This document shows positions 20,377 through 29,954 of a stretch of 64,000 nt of DNA, in pieces. This stretch comes from Pseudomonas yamanorum (GTDB lineage Bacteria > Pseudomonadota > Gammaproteobacteria > Pseudomonadales > Pseudomonadaceae), in the NCBI RefSeq assembly GCF_900105735.1, contig NZ_LT629793.1:6634001-6698000 (forward strand). Direction: 5' to 3'. The number at the start of each line of letters is the position of its first letter. Position 1 is the first letter of the stretch. The notes beneath the pieces are model-generated. The model was not told the origin of the DNA. It did no database searches and saw nothing but the letters and a program-made list of their open reading frames with translations. The position numbers and the translations under genes are program-made.

Positions 20377-20552
20377 ATCATGTCGTCGTTGTACCAGCCT
20401 TCGTTCATAAGCCAATGACTCATTGTTGGCCGGGAGGGGAAGGTTTCGGTTTGCCATCAGCAACTTGTGTTTTGCCACAAACTTGCTGCGTTGCATTCGG
20501 CAGTATTGCGCCCCCTTGAAAGCCTCAGATGAACAGATCCGCCCCTTGCCTC

Positions 20553-21698
20553 TCAAAGCGCCGCATAGACAAGGGGTGAAAGTCGGCGTGGGCGTGGATC
20601 AATCATCGAATGGCTGCCCGAAGTCGTGGTGACAAAACCGAAGCTCACTTGTTTTTCGGGATCAGCGAAACTGATCGGGCCACCAAGCCCGATATGGCCA
20701 AAGGTGTTCGGGCCCATTGCATGGGAAGCCGTCGGGTCGCGTTGCTGCTCGAGCATGCAACCCAATCCATAACGCATGGGGCGCATCCATACTCGATCCA
20801 TGCCATGACTGTGCTCACGGCTGAATTCAGTAAGCAGTTCGGGACCGATAAAGTTTCCTGCCATCAATGCACTGTAGAAACCGGCCAGGCCGTGAGCCGA
20901 ACCGTGTCCACATACGGCGGGTTGCCGGTAGGCCCACCAGCGCGGGTCACTGGTTCGTCTGGGCACCATTCCGGGGTTGGTGAAGGCGAGTGTCGCGATA
21001 TGCGACGGCTCGTTTTTCACCACGGTTCGCAATGCCTGCGAGTAAGGATCACCGACCCGTCCGGTGGCACTGTCGAAACGCGCGATACGATGAAAGTGTT
21101 CTTCGTCCACGCCAAGGTGCACGTCCAACTCATGGGGATCCAGAATCTCTTCGTGGATAAACACACAGGGATCGCGTCCGTCCACCCGACGAATCAACTC
21201 ACCGAGAATCCAGCCAAACGTGGTGGTGCCGTACCCCAGGTCTGTTCCCGCTTCCCACCAAAGCGGCTCGGCCTCCAGCACCCGCAGCATATGTTCCCAG
21301 TCATACATCATGGGGTTATGGTCGGGTGCTCGCAGCGCCGGCAGGCCTGCGGTGTGGTTCATCACCTGGCGCAAGGTGACCCGTGCTTTCCCGCCCTGGG
21401 CGAATTCAGGCCAGTAACGGGCCACGAGCGCATCCAGCTCCAACTTGCCGTCCTCGACCAACATCAGGACGGCCACCGCGACGTAGGGTTTTATAACGCA
21501 AAAGGTATTGGCCAGCGTATCGCGGGTCCAGGGCTTCGTGCCTGCCAGATCCGCCATGCCCGCCCAGAGGTCGACAACGGTCTCTGCGCCTACCTGCACG
21601 CATAGGCCGGCCCCACGTTCCTGCGGATCATCAAACATGTCCTCGAAGGCCTGCTTGACCGCTTCAAACTGCTTCGCACACATCCCTTGCGCTTTCAT
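20553..21698 (-). CDS. Class C beta-lactamase-fold hydrolase with Cys in place of the catalytic Ser
   Basis: A 381-residue protein of the serine beta-lactamase/EstB-type (family VIII esterase) fold. The usual S-x-x-K motif reads Cys67-Val-Ile-Lys70 (NTFCVIKPYVAVAV), encoded by TGC at 21498-21500. The second motif tyrosine is present (Tyr156 in DLGYGTTTFGWILGEL) and a late GHIGLGG segment matches the third motif. Other family features (NHTAGLP, GLAGFYSALMAG) are intact, so the gene does not look decayed. No signal peptide is seen. It lies 71 bp downstream of the desaturase and is probably co-transcribed with it. It could be inactive or a thiol hydrolase. Confidence 0.85.
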   Translation of the reverse strand: MKAQGMCAKQFEAVKQAFEDMFDDPQERGAGLCVQVGAETVVDLWAGMADLAGTKPWTRDTLANTFCVIKPYVAVAVLMLVEDGKLELDALVARYWPEFAQGGKARVTLRQVMNHTAGLPALRAPDHNPMMYDWEHMLRVLEAEPLWWEAGTDLGYGTTTFGWILGELIRRVDGRDPCVFIHEEILDPHELDVHLGVDEEHFHRIARFDSATGRVGDPYSQALRTVVKNEPSHIATLAFTNPGMVPRRTSDPRWWAYRQPAVCGHGSAHGLAGFYSALMAGNFIGPELLTEFSREHSHGMDRVWMRPMRYGLGCMLEQQRDPTASHAMGPNTFGHIGLGGPISFADPEKQVSFGFVTTTSGSHSMIDPRPRRLSPLVYAAL

Positions 21699-21769
21699 AC
21701 CTCAACGTCCTCGTATTTAAAGTGTGGCCCTTGATACTTGCCGAACACCGATAATGGTTGTCGGGGAAT

Positions 21770-22858
21770 TCACCCACGAGACCGAGTTTGGGAGTGCTCC
21801 ACGGAGAAGCGGTTCGCTCGCTTGTAGGTGCCGAAGTCATTGAACCTGACACCGGCCTGGGCCATGACTTTATGAGCATAAGGTGCCGTCATCTGACGCA
21901 GATAAAACGGGTCTCTCACCACGAAGTGATGGATGCTGTGGGTGCTGCCAAAGTTGAAACAGAACAACTGGAAGGGCCACAGCCACCAAGGGTTCATCAC
22001 CTGGGTTTGTTGTAATGCGTTACGCGGGGCAACATCGCCGTAATAGTGCATGTTTGAACTTATAAAAAATAGGCAGAACTGCCGTATCATATTGGGCGCT
22101 ATAAGAATAACTACTGCGCTATTAACGATATCCATTAATTCCAGCGTCGTGGCAGAGCTATGAACCTCCATCCCAATCATTGACCCTGACCAGACATACA
22201 GGTGGTAGCCGAGGAACACATACCAGCACCCCCAATACAGAAGCCCGAATGGTGTATTGAGCCGAATAATCTTGCCTAACAATTTTACCTTTTGCCGCCA
22301 TCCCGGGGCAAAAATCGCATTTAGAAAACCAAATACAAATCCGTCCACCAGTTTCAATAATCGCAGTATTCCCCAAGGGCTGCCGCTCGTGGTGATCCAG
22401 GCTTCAACATCAGAATCAGTTCCGGACTCCTTATGGTGATGAAAGTGCAGAGTACGTCTTAGCCACGGGCTGGGCATACCCGGGCGTGCCAGCCAGCAGA
22501 AGAGCATCATGGCATTATGGGCCAGCGGTTGTTTTCTAAAATAAAGGCGATGAATCAGGTCGTGTTCGATTTCATGAATGAACGAAGTCAGCAGCGCATT
22601 GACCAGAATACACATCCATGCGGGGATAAAACCCTTTATATAGAGCCCTCCCGTAATGACCATCCCTATCAGGGAGAACGCCATGACACCCGCGCCCAGC
22701 GCATTCTGGTGCTGCAGGATCGGATAACGCTTTCGCAGGTAGTTTCCATGGTCCGTAATGCTCCGAGTTACCTTATCAATCTTTTCCTGATCGGTAGTTG
22801 GGTGATCAATTTCGATGGCGTTTTCCAAGACCTTCATCCATTCATCCTCTGATTGCAT
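21770..22858 (-). CDS. Membrane fatty acid desaturase
   Basis: A 362-residue integral membrane protein with the three histidine clusters of di-iron desaturases: HEIEHDLIH, LHFHHHKESG and THSIHHF. Four or more hydrophobic helices lie around them. It should oxidise an acyl chain or related lipid or aldehyde using O2. The start may be ATG 22858 or ATG 22837; the second has a good AGAGGA site upstream. It is followed by the Cys-type hydrolase gene, suggesting a two-gene lipid-modifying unit. Base composition is lower in GC than the flanking core genes. Confidence 0.85.
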   Translation of the reverse strand: MQSEDEWMKVLENAIEIDHPTTDQEKIDKVTRSITDHGNYLRKRYPILQHQNALGAGVMAFSLIGMVITGGLYIKGFIPAWMCILVNALLTSFIHEIEHDLIHRLYFRKQPLAHNAMMLFCWLARPGMPSPWLRRTLHFHHHKESGTDSDVEAWITTSGSPWGILRLLKLVDGFVFGFLNAIFAPGWRQKVKLLGKIIRLNTPFGLLYWGCWYVFLGYHLYVWSGSMIGMEVHSSATTLELMDIVNSAVVILIAPNMIRQFCLFFISSNMHYYGDVAPRNALQQTQVMNPWWLWPFQLFCFNFGSTHSIHHFVVRDPFYLRQMTAPYAHKVMAQAGVRFNDFGTYKRANRFSVEHSQTRSRG

Positions 22859-23065
22859 GGGAAATTACCAGCCGCGTCAAGCCGGTCAAGTCAATTGTTT
22901 GAGCTATAAAACAGTAGTTATTCATATTCGCCTGCTTGAATTACTTGCGTCATCCAAGAAATATGAAATCGACTTTTTTGCGAAAAGCTTGTTAGAATTC
23001 CAAGCTTCAAAATGATAAGGCAAGTTCAACTCTTTGCAACTGTGTATTTTGGGTGGGGTCAGTGT

Positions 23066-23138
23066 TACAAGTATCGGTGTAAGGGTTTGATAATTTAGTT
23101 ACAGTTTGTACAAGTATAAAAAGACTCTGTACAAGTAT
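23066..23138. promoter_or_regulatory. Three phased TACAAGTAT direct repeats before the recombinase-like gene
   Basis: Exact copies of TACAAGTAT lie at 23066-23074, 23109-23117 and 23130-23138; the last two extend to TGTACAAGTAT. Start-to-start spacings are 43 and 21 bp, close to four and two helical turns, so all three face the same side of the DNA. The third copy ends 5 bp before the AAGGAGG ribosome site. This looks like an autoregulatory operator. The rest of the AT-rich 295-bp gap 22859-23153 shows no gene. Confidence 0.6.
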
Positions 23139-23153
23139 TGCCAAGGAGGCACC

Positions 23154-23717
23154 ATGAGATTGCATCGCATCAAATATTTTCGGCGTTCTCTACAAGCGTC
23201 CGAGGGCGCTATAGAGACAATAACGAGCGATGATGTATTTGATGCCGTGTTTTGCGATGAGCCGGCAGACAATGCCGCGAATCCCGCGGGCCAGGAAAGG
23301 CTACTTCGCTACCTACAGTGTGGAGATACCGTGGTAGTGGACAGCATGGCCTCGCTCACCTCCAGTACGGAGCAGCTGTGCACCCTCATTCGCCGGCTGA
23401 TTGAAAAGCAGGTCACGCTTGAGTGCTTGAACGAAAACCTGATTTTCCGGCATGACTGCCTTGAAGTTGTGGAGTCCATCATTGCGGTGATGGAGCTGAT
23501 TGCAGAATTCGAGCGCGCGGCGATGAGGGAAAAACAAGCGGCAGGCATTGCTACTGCAAAGGTCCGGGGGATGTATAAGGGCCGCAAGAAGAAACTGTCT
23601 GACAATCAGGTTGTAAATCTAATTGACCGGGCCGGTGCTGGAGAAAGTAAATCTAAATTGGCACGTGATTTTGAGATCAGTCGGCAGACGCTTTATCGGT
23701 ACTTGAGATCAACTTAG
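23154..23717 (+). CDS. Serine-recombinase-like protein lacking catalytic arginines, likely DNA-binding regulator
   Basis: A 187-residue homologue of gamma-delta resolvase and DNA invertases. The N-terminal domain keeps Arg10 and Ser12 (YFRRS), the long E-helix ([21 protein letters not shown]), a GRKKK minor-groove arm and a C-terminal helix-turn-helix ([17 protein letters not shown]). However, the LDRLGR motif that carries the catalytic arginines R68 and R71 reads MASLTS (65-70), and the R45 position is also changed. Strand exchange is therefore doubtful, and a transcriptional role is plausible. A strong AAGGAGG precedes ATG 23154. Its 3' end overlaps the convergent kinase gene by 9 bp. Confidence 0.8.
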
Positions 23718-24254
23718 TGGCTTATTCAGACGCAGAGATGCTGCGGGCAAACCGTCGAGAAACTCGGCGATCTGTTGGCCACCGCGCAAGTGCACCACGG
23801 GCACCAACGGACCTGCTGCCAGGCGCACCGCCTCGATACTGGGTCGGTAGCTGCGATCAAACGTCCACACGTACTTCAGGAACGTCAGGAACTCCCGGTC
23901 GAGTTTCTCGGTACAGCCAGCGGGAATGTCCGGGCGCGGGCGGTTCAGCACACTGCGCAGGATCACCCGGCCGAAGCAGGTGAGCCGTGGCGTGTCGAGC
24001 CAGATGATCAGGTCGGCCCGGGGCAGGCGCAGGTCGAACGTGCGTCGAGCGTAGTTGCCCTCGCAGACCCATCCATCGGGTGCGACTGCGTTGCGAACTC
24101 GCGTTCGGAACTGCTCGGCATCGGGCTCGACCCAGCCGGGCGACCAGAACAAGGTGTCGAGGTGCACCACGGGCAGGCTCAGACGTTCGCCGAGGGCCCG
24201 GGCGAGGGTGGATTTTCCGCTGCCGGCATTGCCGAGAATCACGATGCGTTGCAT
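23709..24254 (-). CDS. P-loop nucleotide kinase-like protein (FlaR/topology-modulation type)
   Basis: A 181-residue P-loop NTPase related to small adenylate-kinase-like proteins often annotated as DNA topology modulation or FlaR proteins. The Walker A motif is GNAGSGKST (8-16). [48 protein letters not shown] and a C-terminal basic region follow. ATG 24254 immediately precedes the first strand; the upstream extension to 24302 is less likely. Its true role is not established. It overlaps the end of the recombinase-like gene, marking the right edge of the accessory block. Confidence 0.78.
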
Positions 24255-24375
24255 GAGGGGCGTCCTGTCGCGGAAAAGCCCGCAATTGTGCAGGTTTTGC
24301 ATGACCGGTTAAAGCCATATGCGGTAGGTTGACCACCCAGGGAACGGACCCTGTCGACCAAGGAAGCGCCTTCAT

Positions 24376-24747
24376 ATGCCAACCGCCTTTTCCCAAATCA
24401 GCGAACGCCTGAACAATCGCCGATTTGTCGTAGCGGGCAACACCCATGGACTGTCCGGTACAGGCACCGTGTTTGATTACCATGTTGACGCCAATGCCAT
24501 CTGGGGAACTTACCAGGGTGGTCGGATTCGTATGGGTAATCAGGTCGGGCGCGCCACAGGGCCCGATACAATTGAGCTGCTTTATCAGTGCCTGACCACA
24601 GAGGGCGAGATTCTGGCCGGTTGGTCGCGGGGCACGGTAAGCGTTGATCACACCGGGCGGACCACCCTGGCCTTCGTATGGGGTTGGTTGTCAGGCGCGA
24701 CGGGCGGCGGGGAGTCCAGCTATGTCGAGCTAGTCCCGGAGTCGTGA
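24376..24747 (+). CDS. Conserved hypothetical beta-rich protein, 123 residues
   Basis: A small soluble protein with alternating hydrophobic strands and glycines (RRFVVAGNTHGLSGTGTVFDYHVDANAIWGTYQGGRIRMGNQVGR ... TEGEILAGWSRGTVSVDHTGRTTLAFVWGWLSG). The spacing suggests a small beta-barrel of lipocalin or similar type. No signal peptide or catalytic motif is recognised. AGGAAG lies about 10 bp upstream of ATG 24376. It sits 45 bp before the epoxide hydrolase gene and may be co-transcribed. Function unknown. Confidence 0.65.
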   Translation: MPTAFSQISERLNNRRFVVAGNTHGLSGTGTVFDYHVDANAIWGTYQGGRIRMGNQVGRATGPDTIELLYQCLTTEGEILAGWSRGTVSVDHTGRTTLAFVWGWLSGATGGGESSYVELVPES

Positions 24748-24792
24748 TGGAGTGCGCTGGCAGCGTCCATGGAAACTCACCAGGAGCCCCCC

Positions 24793-25923
24793 ATGATCTT
24801 GCCCTACACCATCAACATCCCCGACGAACGTCTTGCCGCCATCCGCGACAAAGTCGCCGCCTACGATTGGACCCAACTTCCCGATCTGGGCGGGTGGAAG
24901 TCGGGTGTAGGCGTCAGCGACCTCAAGCGCCTGACCCGTTACTGGCTTGAGTCCTACGACTGGCGCCAGGTCGAAAAACATCTGAATCAACTACCCAACT
25001 TCATCACCGAAATTGAGGGCGAGCATCTGCATTTCCTCCATGTGCGGGGGGACGGTTCCAAGCCGCCGGTGCTGTTGCTCCACGGCTGGCCAGGTTCGTA
25101 CCTGGAGTTCGAGGCGTTGCTTGAGCCGCTGGCGGCTGACGGACACGATGTGATCGTGCCGTCGCTTCCGGGGTTTGCGTTTTCCAAGCCGATCACCGGC
25201 GTAATGGGTCCGCGCCGGGCTGCCGAACTGATGCACGGGCTGATGGTTCGTTTGTTCGGGCCATCCCGCTTCATCGTTCAGGGCGGAGACTGGGGTTCAG
25301 GCATCGCGGGCTGGATGGCCCATGACCGGCCTGAGGCGTTATTGGGAATTCACCTGAATATGGCCGACCTGCTGGCCAAGGGCACCGTTGCAACCACGGC
25401 TGAGGAGGAGGCTTTCGTCGCCCGGCGTAAAGTGCTGATCGACTGGGAAACCGGCTACAACCACCAGCAGGAAACCCGTCCGCAAACCCTGGGCGTCGCG
25501 CTGGCTGATAGCCCGGTGGGCGCCGCGGGCTGGATTCTCGAAAAAATCGGTACATGGGCCGATCTGCCCAGGACCGCTGACGGCAGCCCGGACCTCTGGC
25601 ACACCTTTACCGAAGAGCAACTGCTCACCAACATCATGCTGTATCTCGCGCCGTCTTCCATGGTCACCGCGACGTGGATGTATCACGGCAAACGCCTGGA
25701 GGGCTCATCGAGATTCCCGGCCGGCACCCGCATCCAGGTGCCAACCGGATTTGCCGCCTTTCGCGACCCGGTGTTCGTGCCGCCGCCACGCTCATTTGCC
25801 GAAAAGACCTTCAACATCGTGCACTGGAGCGAGATGCCCGCCGGCGGTCACTTTGCGGCCTGGGAGCAGCCGGCGTTGGTGCTGGCGGACTTGAGAGCCT
25901 TCATTGCTAAGGTCTGTGCTTGA
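24793..25923 (+). CDS. Epoxide hydrolase (N-terminal EHN domain, alpha/beta hydrolase)
   Basis: A 376-residue enzyme. The N-terminal EHN region ([44 protein letters not shown]) is typical of microsomal-type epoxide hydrolases. The hydrolase core has HGWPGS (97-102), nucleophile Asp166 in GGDWGS, and the catalytic His in [11 protein letters not shown]. It should open an epoxide to a diol by a covalent ester intermediate. ATG 24793 with an AGGAG site is preferred over ATG 24769. Its last 17 bp overlap the convergent argC gene. Confidence 0.88.
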
Positions 25924-26839
25924 TCATCAAGTCCAGGTTTTGCACGGCGGCACCTGCGGCGCCCTTGCCGAGGTTGTCGAACACCGCCGCCAGCAGGACC
26001 TGGCCCGTCTCGTAGTTTTCACACACGATCAAACGCACATCGTCCGTGCCGTTCAGCGCTTGAGGATCGAGGTAGGTCAGTTCTTTGGCGGCCTGCATCG
26101 ACAGCACCTGGACGTGATTCGTATCGCTGTAGTGCTGCGTCAGGCAGGCATGCAAGCGTGTCGCGTCCACGCCCGGGGTCAACAGCCGCAGTTGCAGCGG
26201 AATGGTCAGTACGATGCCCTGGCGGAACGCCCCGTAGGCCGGCACAAACATGGGCCTTTCCGTCAGCCCGCTTTGCAACTGAATCTCCGGCACATGCTTG
26301 TGTGCCAGCCCGAGCCCATACACCAGGAAGGCGGGCGCTTGTGAAGCATCCGCGCCCTCATGTTCCTGCACCCCGGCGCGGCCCTTGCCGGAATAACCCG
26401 ACACGGCATGAATGGTCGTCGGGTAGTCCTTGGGCAGCAGCCCGGCCTCAAGCAAGGGGCGCAACAGTCCGATCGCTCCGGTGGGGTAGCAACCGGGATT
26501 GCTGACTCGCTGCGCCGTGGCAATGCGTTGCGCCTGTTGCGGGCTCATTTCGGCGAAACCGTAGGTCCATTCAGGGTGAGTACGGTGGGCCGAACTCGCG
26601 TCGATCACTCGCACAGCCGGGTTCTGGATGCTGGCGACGGCGTCGCGTGCGGCGTCGTCGGGCAGGCAGAGAATCGCAATGTCGCAGGCGTTGATCATCT
26701 CGGCGCGCTGCTGCGGGTCCTTGCGGTGTTCCGGGCTCAGGGTGATCAGTTGCAGATCGGTGCGGTCGCGCAGGCGCTGATGGATCTGCAACCCGGTGGT
26801 GCCTTGGTCGCCGTCGATAAATACAAGAGGATTTGCCAT
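25907..26839 (-). CDS. argC: N-acetyl-gamma-glutamyl-phosphate reductase, type 2
   Basis: A 310-residue NADPH-dependent reductase of arginine biosynthesis, short (type 2) form. Features are the N-terminal [17 protein letters not shown] cofactor loop, the catalytic cysteine in [23 protein letters not shown] and a C-terminal [17 protein letters not shown]. Pseudomonads normally carry a longer type-1 ArgC, so this is probably a second copy. ATG 26839 (MANPLVF) is preferred over GTG 26848. A LysR gene is transcribed divergently 112 bp away and may control it. Confidence 0.88.
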
Positions 26840-26951
26840 GGGATGCACTCGCAGAGGAAATCAGGTGTTCCAATCTTCGGCGAGCCGCTAGGATAGGAAA
26901 AGTTGAATTTCCAAACGATGAAGTTCAGGTTTTCTGAATAAGGATTGACCC

Positions 26952-27836
26952 ATGCGCGAAATCAGCCTGGACCGCCTGCGCACACTCGTGGCGATTGCCG
27001 ACCTTGGTTCGTTCGCCGAGGCGGCCCGAATGCTGAACCTCGCGCCACCGACGGTCAGCCTGCACATTGCTGATCTTGAGTCGCGAGTGGGCGGCAAGCT
27101 GTTGTCGCGTACCCGTGGGCGGGTTCAGCCTTCGGCGATTGGCGAAACCCTGGTGGAGCGTGCACGCCGGTTGTTGGCGGATGCGGAACAGGCGCTTGAA
27201 GACGTGGAGCGGCAGGTGCAGGGCCTGGCTGGACGTGTGCGGCTGGGTGCCTCCACCGGGGCCATCGCACAGTTGCTGCCGCAAGCCCTCGAGACCTTGA
27301 GCCAACACCACCCAGCCATCGATGTGCAGGTCGCAGTGCTCACCTCGCAGGACACGCTGAAGAAACTTGCCGAAGGCGCACTCGAAATTGGCCTGGTGGC
27401 GCTGCCGCAGGCGCCAGTGAAGGGTTTGCGCATCGAGCCCTGGCGGCGGGATCCGGTCATGGCGTTTTTGCCGGCGCGCCGGGAATGCCCGGAGGTGGTG
27501 ACACCTGCTTGGCTGGCCGCCCAGCCCTTGATTCTGAATGACACCACCACCCGGCTTTCACGCCTGACTTCGGAGTGGTTCGCCAGTGACGGGCATCAGC
27601 CCACGCCGCGTATTCAACTCAACTATAACGACGCAATCAAAAGCCTGGTGGCTGCCGGTTATGGCGCTACGTTGTTGCCCCATGAAGCGAGCACGCCTTT
27701 GCCTGACAGCCGGATCGTGATGCGTCCAATCCAGCCCTTGCTGTGGCGCCAACTGGGGATTGCCCACCGCGCCGGGGACATCGAGCGGCCAACGCAACAT
27801 GTGCTGGATGTGTTGTGGGGGTTGAGTGCGGGGTAG
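26952..27836 (+). CDS. LysR-family transcriptional regulator
   Basis: A 294-residue LysR-type regulator. The N-terminal winged helix is LDRLRTLVAIADLGSFAEAARMLNLAPPTVSLHIADLESRVGGKLLSR. The substrate-binding domain runs from about residue 92 (GRVRLGASTGAIAQLLPQALETL). It is divergent from argC, the usual arrangement for a LysR regulator and its target, so control of argC or of the argC-side transcript is likely. The effector is unknown. Confidence 0.87.
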   Translation: MREISLDRLRTLVAIADLGSFAEAARMLNLAPPTVSLHIADLESRVGGKLLSRTRGRVQPSAIGETLVERARRLLADAEQALEDVERQVQGLAGRVRLGASTGAIAQLLPQALETLSQHHPAIDVQVAVLTSQDTLKKLAEGALEIGLVALPQAPVKGLRIEPWRRDPVMAFLPARRECPEVVTPAWLAAQPLILNDTTTRLSRLTSEWFASDGHQPTPRIQLNYNDAIKSLVAAGYGATLLPHEASTPLPDSRIVMRPIQPLLWRQLGIAHRAGDIERPTQHVLDVLWGLSAG

Positions 27837-27917
27837 CGCCTTAAAGTTGTGTGTACCGTGCGGGACGGGTAGCCTTGCGCCCCGATGTAACTAGCCATTT
27901 CAAGGAAGGAAGCGCGC

Positions 27918-28250
27918 GTGAGGATTTTTCAAGGAGTGATCGGGTTGGCGGGATTAGGCCTGTTGCTCGGTTGCAGCGTTGCCCAGGCTAAAGACGGTGT
28001 CTCCTTTGGCGACGATCCGCTTGGGTGGTCATTCCTGAAGTTCTCCACCTTCACCTTGCTGACTTCGGAACTGACCACCCGTCCCGGCAGCTTTCTTTCA
28101 GCCAAGAATGACGCGTTGGCGTTTGTAGGGTCCGAGGGCCAGATCCGGGGTGCGTATTTTGAGCAGGCGTTGCGGGATTTTCGCGGTGCTGGCGGTAACC
28201 CTGATGTCAGCGATGCGCAGTTTGCCGAGGCGGTGGCGGTGATTGAGTAA
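27918..28250 (+). CDS. DUF2388 periplasmic protein
   Basis: A 110-residue Pseudomonas-type DUF2388 protein with a GTG start behind AAGGAAGGA. The signal peptide is MRIFQGVIGLAGLGLLLGCSVAQA; the LLGCS could also be read as a lipobox, but the AQA-K cut is equally good. The mature domain shows the DUF2388 pattern (SFLKFSTFTLLTSELTTRP ... AKNDALAFVGSEGQIRGAYFEQALRDFR). Function unknown. It lies just upstream of the broken lipoprotein gene. Confidence 0.8.
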   Translation: MRIFQGVIGLAGLGLLLGCSVAQAKDGVSFGDDPLGWSFLKFSTFTLLTSELTTRPGSFLSAKNDALAFVGSEGQIRGAYFEQALRDFRGAGGNPDVSDAQFAEAVAVIE

Positions 28251-28291
28251 ACACGTTTCAACCCTGAACTTGACCTGCTCATGGAGAGCTT

Positions 28292-28918
28292 ATGCCATTT
28301 CGTAACGTCCTCGTTTTTACCCATCTCGCCTTAGCGCTGTTGCTTTCAGGCTGCGCAAACCCTCAGGTTGCTGTCGCACCGGCGGCGCCCTTTGATCTTG
28401 AACCCCTGGGCCAGCCGCTGGCGCAGACCAGCGTCCGTACTGCGCTGATCGACCAGATCATCGTCAAGGACCCGGTGGTGATCTCATCGCAATAGCCGGT
28501 TCTCGCGCCTTCTGATAACGATGCGCGCATCGCCAAACTACGCAAAGCAGACGGCGGCGCACTGCCTGACGGTTACTGGGCACTCTACAAACAAAACCTT
28601 GAAGCGATGCAGTACGACCTCAATCACCAGCATGACGCCGCTCGTGTGCAGTACGAGCAGACGTATCGTGACGAATTGAGCCGAGTGGATGACCGCACGC
28701 TGCAAGTCATGGCCACGGCGCCCACGACGCTGGATGAGCCGACGCGGCGTCAGTGGAACGCCCGCATGGCCGATAGACAGTCGCATTACATAAAGACCAG
28801 CGAGCAATCGCTGCGCGCCGCTGCCGATGCGCATATCAATCGCATGGCCTTGATGGACCGACAATACAACGTGTGCGCACGTAACCCGGAGTGCTGGGAT
28901 GCGCCGGTTAAGAAGTAA
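28292..28918 (+). pseudogene. Lipoprotein gene interrupted by an in-frame TAG
   Basis: The frame from ATG 28292 encodes a lipoprotein signal (LALALLLSGCANPQ) and 67 residues, then meets TAG at 28493-28495. The same frame stays open without a break for another 140 codons to TAA 28916-28918 (PVLAPSDNDARIAK ... PECWDAPVKK). The downstream half starts with no ribosome site and has no signal of its own; the later ATG at 28607 is internal. The simplest reading is a single 208-codon lipoprotein gene with one amber mutation or a sequencing error. Family not recognised; the C-terminal part is helical and contains a Cys pair (CARNPEC). Confidence 0.75.
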
Positions 28919-29046
28919 TGCGCTGTCCTTGACCATGACGCGCTGAATCATACGATTGGGCTATGAGTGCCTTAGTGACTCAGGAATTTACACAGACCTG
29001 AATCTCCTTGAGATTGGCGCGGTCGTTTTTTCAAGGAGTCAGCCAT

Positions 29047-29853
29047 ATGTCCCTACCCGAACCGTTCACCCATGCACAGCTCCCCATGACGGTCGACGGT
29101 GTGCCGTTGAGCATCGCAACGATCCACCGCGCGGGCGGCCTGGCGCCAATCGTGTTCCTGCATGGCTTTGGCTCCACCAAGGAAGACTACGCCGACATCG
29201 TCCAGCAACCTGCATTCGACGGTCACCCGTTTGTGGCCTACGACGCCCCCGGTTGCGGTGAAAGCCAGTGCGGCGACCTGTCGAAGATCTCAATCCCGTT
29301 CCTGCTGCAAACCGCCACGCAAGTGCTTGACCACTTCAACATCGAGCGCTTCCATCTAGTAGGCCACTCCATGGGCGGGCTCACCGCTCTGATGCTGGCG
29401 CACCAGTTCCCGGGCAGGGTGCTGAGCTTTGTCGATATCGAAGGCAATATCGCGCCGGAAGACTGCTTCCTCAGCCGGCAGATCGTCGACTACCCGGCAG
29501 ATGATCCCGAGGCGTTTTTCAGCGCCTTTATCGAGCGCACTCGCCAGGCACCGGCCTACGCCAGTGCGCTGTATTCGGCGAGCCTGAGGCACAAGGTGCG
29601 TGCCGGTGCGGTGCGGGGGATTTTCCAGTCCATGGTCGAGCTGTCCGATAACGCCGACCTGATGGGCAAGTTCCTCGGCCTGGAATGCCCGCGCCTGTTC
29701 ATGTACGGCGAGCAGAATGCACACCTGTCGTACCTGGCGCATATCCAGGCGCAGGGCGTGCGGCTGGCGCCGATTGCGCAGTGCGGGCACTTCCCGATGT
29801 ACTCCAACCCGATCGCGATGTGGAAGCAGATTGCGGACTTTCAGCACAGCTGA
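29047..29853 (+). CDS. Alpha/beta-fold hydrolase
   Basis: A 268-residue cytosolic hydrolase with HGFGSTKEDY (39-48), nucleophile Ser108 in GHSMGG, and a late His in AQCGHFPMYSNP. The lid segment (DYPADDPEAFFSAFIERTRQAP) is typical of small esterases and C-C bond hydrolases. AAGGAG precedes ATG 29047. A small hairpin at 29001-29015 lies in the leader. It is a single gene; substrate unknown. Confidence 0.82.
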   Translation: MSLPEPFTHAQLPMTVDGVPLSIATIHRAGGLAPIVFLHGFGSTKEDYADIVQQPAFDGHPFVAYDAPGCGESQCGDLSKISIPFLLQTATQVLDHFNIERFHLVGHSMGGLTALMLAHQFPGRVLSFVDIEGNIAPEDCFLSRQIVDYPADDPEAFFSAFIERTRQAPAYASALYSASLRHKVRAGAVRGIFQSMVELSDNADLMGKFLGLECPRLFMYGEQNAHLSYLAHIQAQGVRLAPIAQCGHFPMYSNPIAMWKQIADFQHS

Positions 29854-29954
29854 TCTCAACCGCCAGCGATCAGACAGGCCCGAAAGCACAAGACTTACGC
29901 CTCGAAACCCGGATAATGGCGGCCATATTTTGCTCGCTATTCTGGTAAACCCGC

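Follow-up and report, generated by a model that had tools for sequence, protein, structure and literature searches.

The resolvase of Tn3 is reported to bind the res site between the divergent genes tnpR and tnpA and to autoregulate both of these genes (PMC7157771). Section 10 of PMC8987985 deals with transcription factors of mobile elements that are of the Xre and RHH type, and serine recombinases are not mentioned there. Among the titles and abstract beginnings that full-text searches of open-licence papers listed there was no recombination-dead serine recombinase described as a transcription regulator, which is weak evidence of absence. Such a protein is likely encoded in Pseudomonas yamanorum, in a stretch of 64,000 nucleotides (contig NZ_LT629793.1, positions 6,634,001 to 6,698,000, here called the window) of a genome that consists of a 7.09-Mb single contig (G000). 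The 187-residue product of the open reading frame at 23154-23717 on the forward strand is, with good probability and judged from sequence, a TnpR-like resolvase that has lost its chemistry and has been kept as a local one-component regulator of itself and of a divergent desaturase-hydrolase operon.

The reading frame is preceded by AGGAGG at 23144-23149 and begins with an ATG at 23154, the methionine of which is common to close homologues. In agreement with the first-pass annotation, which had recognized a serine recombinase homologue here, Pfam finds a Resolvase domain (E 8.6e-14) and the helix-turn-helix domain HTH_7 (E 1.5e-11), and this domain layout of small serine recombinases is also present in an AlphaFold2 model and in the structure matches, among which are the Gin structures 3uj3 and 4m6f. 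The E helix, of which a counterpart is predicted, dimerises resolvases. Named close homologues come from Pseudomonas, and the named hits are called "recombinase family protein" or "DNA invertase Pin-like", so that regulators of this kind are hidden by annotation. G000 has one further Resolvase-family match, and its motif is DRLSR.

Catalytic residues were compared in an alignment to gamma-delta resolvase that set 31 sequences of the family, namely the query and P0001-P0030, beside 69 other hits; as the family includes the shortened P0003, P0027 and P0030 as well as near-copies, all tallies count sequences and not events. The query retains Y6, R8 and S10, but has exchanged R45 for P, D67 for A, and R68 and R71 for S, and the position of the LDRLGR motif reads MASLTS. 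Neither arginine is found in any of the 31 family sequences, with S (23), A (4), T (3) or M (1) at position 68 and S (26), T (2), A, C or P (1 each) at position 71, whereas the other hits have both arginines in 68 of 68 cases. The loss is thus not a sequencing quirk, it is common to the close homologues as the first-pass annotation had asked, and at neither position does the alignment put another arginine. R80, ten residues past S70 on the same helix, does not vary among the 27 family rows used. Also the nucleophile position is not maintained as would be expected of active small serine recombinases: Ser10 is present in 20 of 30 family sequences and replaced by A (7), P (2) or Q (1) in the other ten, as compared to 65 of 66 other hits with Ser. 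The Tyr-x-Arg-x-Ser start that had been described as kept is therefore kept in the query, with Y6 in 30/31 and R8 in 29/31 family sequences, but not at its serine throughout the family. Similarly, R45 is indeed changed in the query, yet it is retained in 24 of the 31 family sequences. Q14 occurs in no family sequence, Q19 falls into a gap in all of them, and the position of R125 is K in 24 and R in 6. D67 is absent from all 31 (A 28, T 3), a loss that weighs less because the other hits have D in only 48 of 68. Since the catalytic residues expected of a recombinase are not there, the protein is not filed as one, and the best reading of the alignment is a small serine recombinase by descent that is recombination-dead. 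It had been proposed that DNA binding survives and strand exchange does not, which sequence and context both favour, and no homologue with these substitutions was shown recombining in this analysis.

The regulator gene is under purifying selection. The ratio of non-synonymous to synonymous substitution rates (dN/dS, Nei-Gojobori, 11 loci, 55 pairs, of which two of the five segments had 54) is 0.154 overall, and 0.457 for residues 1-27, 0.133 for 28-100, 0.163 for 101-140 and 0.070 for 141-187, so the first 27 residues are relaxed and the helix-turn-helix is under the strongest constraint. The residues F29, A31, C76, Q86, R99 and E114 are shared by all 27 family rows used (P0001, P0003, P0027 and P0030 being omitted from this count) and by none of 21 hand-chosen canonical rows. 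The constraints that act on the protein form a new set.

The kinship of the family was analysed with IQ-TREE (quick mode) on 53 hand-chosen rows, 19 of the 31 family rows and 34 of the 69 others. The degenerate family forms one side of a branch of length 1.35 with a support of 100 in the Shimodaira-Hasegawa-like approximate likelihood ratio test, and most simply the catalytic chemistry was lost once. In the midpoint-rooted tree the family is grouped with 15 canonical rows (support 88). One of these canonical neighbours, P0033, has 72% identity with a Tn3-type TnpR resolvase from Pseudomonas, and similar matches are annotated as tnpR in two phage records, which suggests that the canonical tree neighbours are Tn3-type TnpR-like resolvases. 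The best PHROG match of the query is named DNA invertase and the best NCBIfam match is the Mpi invertase, far below the cut-off; named invertases were not among the rows of the tree. The first-pass annotation had proposed an invertase domesticated as a transcription factor, of which the recruitment as a regulator is backed by sequence and context, while "invertase" is doubtful in view of the TnpR-like neighbours.

What the regulator may control is suggested by its surroundings. In 12 of 12 intact loci that were read (the window, eight other genomes with the regulator, L036, L037 and L107), the regulator gene has an open frame and lies divergent from a fatty-acid desaturase gene, which is followed by a serine hydrolase gene; in L044 the fetched piece covers just the first 50 hydrolase residues, and three more loci with the regulator appear to be three already counted genomes again. 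L107 (G697) was drawn from a different sample as a held-out test, and it has all three genes. The regulator search matched 37 of 398 genomes, nine of which have the degenerate type, and a desaturase of at least 85% identity is found in the same nine. The desaturase search as such matched 240 of 398 genomes; at 71-76% identity it found five more genomes without the regulator, one of which (G343) has a canonical resolvase elsewhere, and among the matches listed the next below 71% are at 51-56%. The protein distances of the three cassette genes correlate with r 0.82 to 0.85 (45 pairs, 10 loci). As the same enzyme genes adjoin the regulator in every copy examined, it is most likely a gene switch for these adjacent enzyme genes.

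Homology to the 15-30 kb part of the window is limited to about 20550-23740 in six of eight regulator regions and in L036, whereas collinearity reaches far beyond the cassette in L038 and L039, and L037 also shares a LysE gene. The cassette (20553-23720) has eight different right-hand flanks among 11 loci, and its ends coincide with stop codons. Terminal repeats were not seen by eye in the printed ends. Transposase families had no match among seven neighbour proteins of the regulator, so that among these the linkage to a transposase gene that is expected of a Tn3-type TnpR was not seen.

The 295-bp region between the divergent genes contains a candidate operator. TGTACAAGTAT occurs there as an exact direct repeat with copies at -47 and -26 relative to the start codon of the regulator, 21 bp apart. 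In all 11 loci compared, each of the two positions agrees with it in 9 to 11 of its 11 bases and in the same orientation, with a spacing of 21 bp except for 22 in L010; the pair is also present in L107. In G000 it is unique even when up to 3 mismatches are allowed. Among 16 further genomes, the pair was found at the locus in seven of eight with the regulator and in none of eight without it. It is also absent from the five genomes that have the desaturase without the regulator, where the 420 bp before the desaturase have no site above 8 of 11 matches. The weaker third site, at -90, reaches at least 8 of 11 matches in only 3 of 11 loci. Besides this 11-bp direct repeat, the repeat search of the intergenic region found one inverted pair of 12 bp at a distance of 59 bp, a search in which diverged res subsites could be missed. 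The mean pairwise identity is 91% in the block with the promoter-like match that faces the desaturase and 88% in the repeat block, while the four-fold sites within the regulator gene have 61%. As the promoter scan gave two matches where 0.9 are expected, the match facing the desaturase is weak by itself. Around its -35 hexamer, and extending past it, there is a 23-bp run, TCTTTGCAACTGTGTATTTTGGG at 23031-23053, that is invariant in all 11 aligned loci and may be a second protein site. Seen from the desaturase, the repeats lie upstream of the -35 element, an activator-like place, and seen from the regulator they lie in the leader or promoter, a repressor-like place. The sequence evidence thus includes what is looked for in a divergent regulator, a conserved linkage to a presumed target operon and a conserved candidate operator, and from the two together the regulator probably controls the divergent operon.

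The following course of events would account for these data. A TnpR-like resolvase would have lost catalysis while its fold and resolvase helix-turn-helix were retained, and the dead resolvase would have been kept as a local regulator attached to the desaturase-hydrolase pair. A dimer of the protein would most likely bind the TGTACAAGTAT direct repeats, which are situated in the leader or promoter of the regulator gene, and would thereby repress this gene; the bound protein would also control the divergent promoter, be it by repression or by activation. The outcome would be the repressor half of the double job of TnpR without the recombination half. DNA binding, dimerisation, autorepression and operon control are all inferred here.

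Several points weigh against such a regulator. The nesting among canonical resolvases depends on midpoint rooting and on the branch with a support of 88. The desaturase-hydrolase pair exists without the regulator in four genomes, and in a fifth the desaturase is alone (11-12 kb read). Resolvase dimers usually use inverted half-sites, unlike the direct repeats found here, and when the 240 bp ahead of the regulator were shuffled 2000 times, 16 of the shuffled sequences had an exact direct repeat of 11 bp, which is why the operator claim is carried by conservation and by uniqueness in the genome. The sole promoter-like match toward the regulator is at 22969-22998, some 155 bp before the ATG and well upstream of the repeats, and therefore the repeats may lie in the regulator leader and not in a core promoter. 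Finally, the desaturase is apparently frameshifted in G052. In this copy (L042, 8743-9827) the first 55 or so desaturase codons are read in three frames, hence the suspected frameshift, and the regulator is intact.

It is conceivable, if rather doubtful, that the dead catalytic domain was remade as a sensor, in which DNA binding would be switched by a lipid, thiol or redox signal that is perceived by the emptied active site together with invariant family-only residues, Cys76 among them. If so, serine recombinases would have given rise to a new family of one-component regulators.

Both Pseudomonas genomes and plasmids have active-looking relatives with 42-45% identity. One locus was read in each of 12 other matched genomes, and the motif is intact in all 12; in eight further loci (seven more genomes and G192 again) it is intact in L109, L111, L113, L114 and L115, reads RLAH and comes with a stop in L112, L110 yielded the C-terminal part only, and the eighth locus, in G296, is a broken remnant of the degenerate family, with the remaining 9 of the 37 matched genomes left out of this reading. 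Such relatives, together with the retained long helix and helix-turn-helix, would suit a DNA-binding partner with an architectural or accessory function, which might, as a subunit mixed into the active resolvases of incoming transposons, poison these and would have no direct role for the operon. This is improbable, as a local role is indicated by the co-occurrence with the desaturase and by the conservation of the intergenic repeats, and as most of the 12 canonical loci are preceded, judged by eye, by TGTCAG-type sites that are unlike TGTACAAGTAT.

Even less probable is an active recombinase that uses other residues and perhaps moves or inverts the cassette, which is found at several chromosomal places. 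The different flanks and the retention of Y6, R8, R45 and Ser10 in most of the family would agree with it, but the nucleophile is A, P or Q in a third of the sequences, both arginines are missing from the entire family and present in 68 of 68 other hits, and the cassette ends at stop codons without visible terminal repeats. A decaying resolvase, the functionless relic of a lost transposon, has as little probability, because the lost catalytic residues, the relaxed N-terminus and a broken remnant in G296 are outweighed by the open frame in 12 intact loci, the low dN/dS overall and especially in the helix-turn-helix, invariant family-only residues such as C76, Q86 and E114, the linkage with two enzymes, and neighbours that match no transposase family.

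The remnant in G296 (L108, 2304-2474) comprises 57 residues with an in-frame stop and is 79% identical; the 5 kb read around it contain no match to the desaturase or the hydrolase. Plasmid carriage of the degenerate family was considered and rejected, as all plasmid matches among the 5000 listed are below 60% identity, and in a blastn search none of the plasmids had more than 9% of the cassette. Phage or viral carriage was rejected as well: a search of viral_contigs gave no relative, and the sole "phage" record at 89% identity, MT839397.1 (L090, 1-7909, "Bacteriophage sp.", unverified, from human faeces), matches window positions 22625-29871 at about 88-89% identity in five collinear blocks, and is thus Pseudomonas chromosomal DNA filed as phage.

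Features of the regulator locus, with coordinates in the window
Feature	Coordinates	Strand	Evidence
Serine hydrolase with a beta-lactamase/esterase fold, following the desaturase in the divergent pair	20553..21698	-	PF00144, E 1.9e-65
Fatty-acid desaturase, divergent neighbour of the regulator	21770..22858	-	PF00487, E 5.4e-21
Sigma-70-like match TTGCAA-16-TATCAT facing the desaturase	23012..23039	-	promoter scan
Weaker third site, GTTACAAGTAT, 9/11 matches, 43 bp upstream of the first site	23064..23074	+	comparison with TGTACAAGTAT
Proposed operator site, TGTACAAGTAT	23107..23117	+	repeat search, conservation
Proposed operator site, second TGTACAAGTAT	23128..23138	+	repeat search, conservation
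Recombination-dead resolvase-fold protein, proposed transcription regulator, 187 aa	23154..23717	+	open reading frame, Pfam, alignment, predicted fold
Dead equivalent of the D67-R68-L-G-R71 motif (SMASLTS, codons 64-70)	23343..23363	+	alignment
Long helix, residues 103-137, E helix counterpart	23460..23564	+	AlphaFold2 model
Arm and HTH_7 DNA-binding domain, strongest constraint in the protein	23574..23714	+	Pfam; dN/dS 0.070

If the dead resolvase is indeed a regulator, the two functions that a transposon resolvase combines would have been separated by nature, in that recombination was lost and regulation was kept and attached to a metabolic cassette. The signature of this loss, the absence of R68 and R71 together with a constrained helix-turn-helix, could be used to scan all serine recombinases.

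With the DNA invertases Hin, Gin and Pin the protein shares the common superfamily fold, and its best PHROG match is called DNA invertase, but the catalytic residues are lost here, and the kinship was judged from a tree without named invertases. Divergent regulators of the LysR or AraC type have, as is generally known, the same layout with a gene divergent from the likely target and repeated sites in between, only that here a resolvase fold takes the place of a known sensor domain. TldR proteins are derived from TnpB-like nucleases and have dead active sites. These RNA-guided transcription factors are alike in outline, as in both cases a protein from a mobile element is recruited for transcription control (PMC13418256), but they belong to an unrelated protein family, and for the protein described here no guide RNA is proposed. 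Also close are the TnpR resolvases of the Tn3 family (Tn3, gamma-delta), with which the fold, the HTH_7 domain and the apparently TnpR-like tree neighbours agree, and the TnpR of Tn3, too, is reported to regulate divergent genes from sites located between them (PMC7157771). In contrast to them, the protein has no R68, R71, Q14 and Q19 and a variable Ser10, is linked to metabolic enzymes, and has as its putative sites a direct repeat of another sequence.
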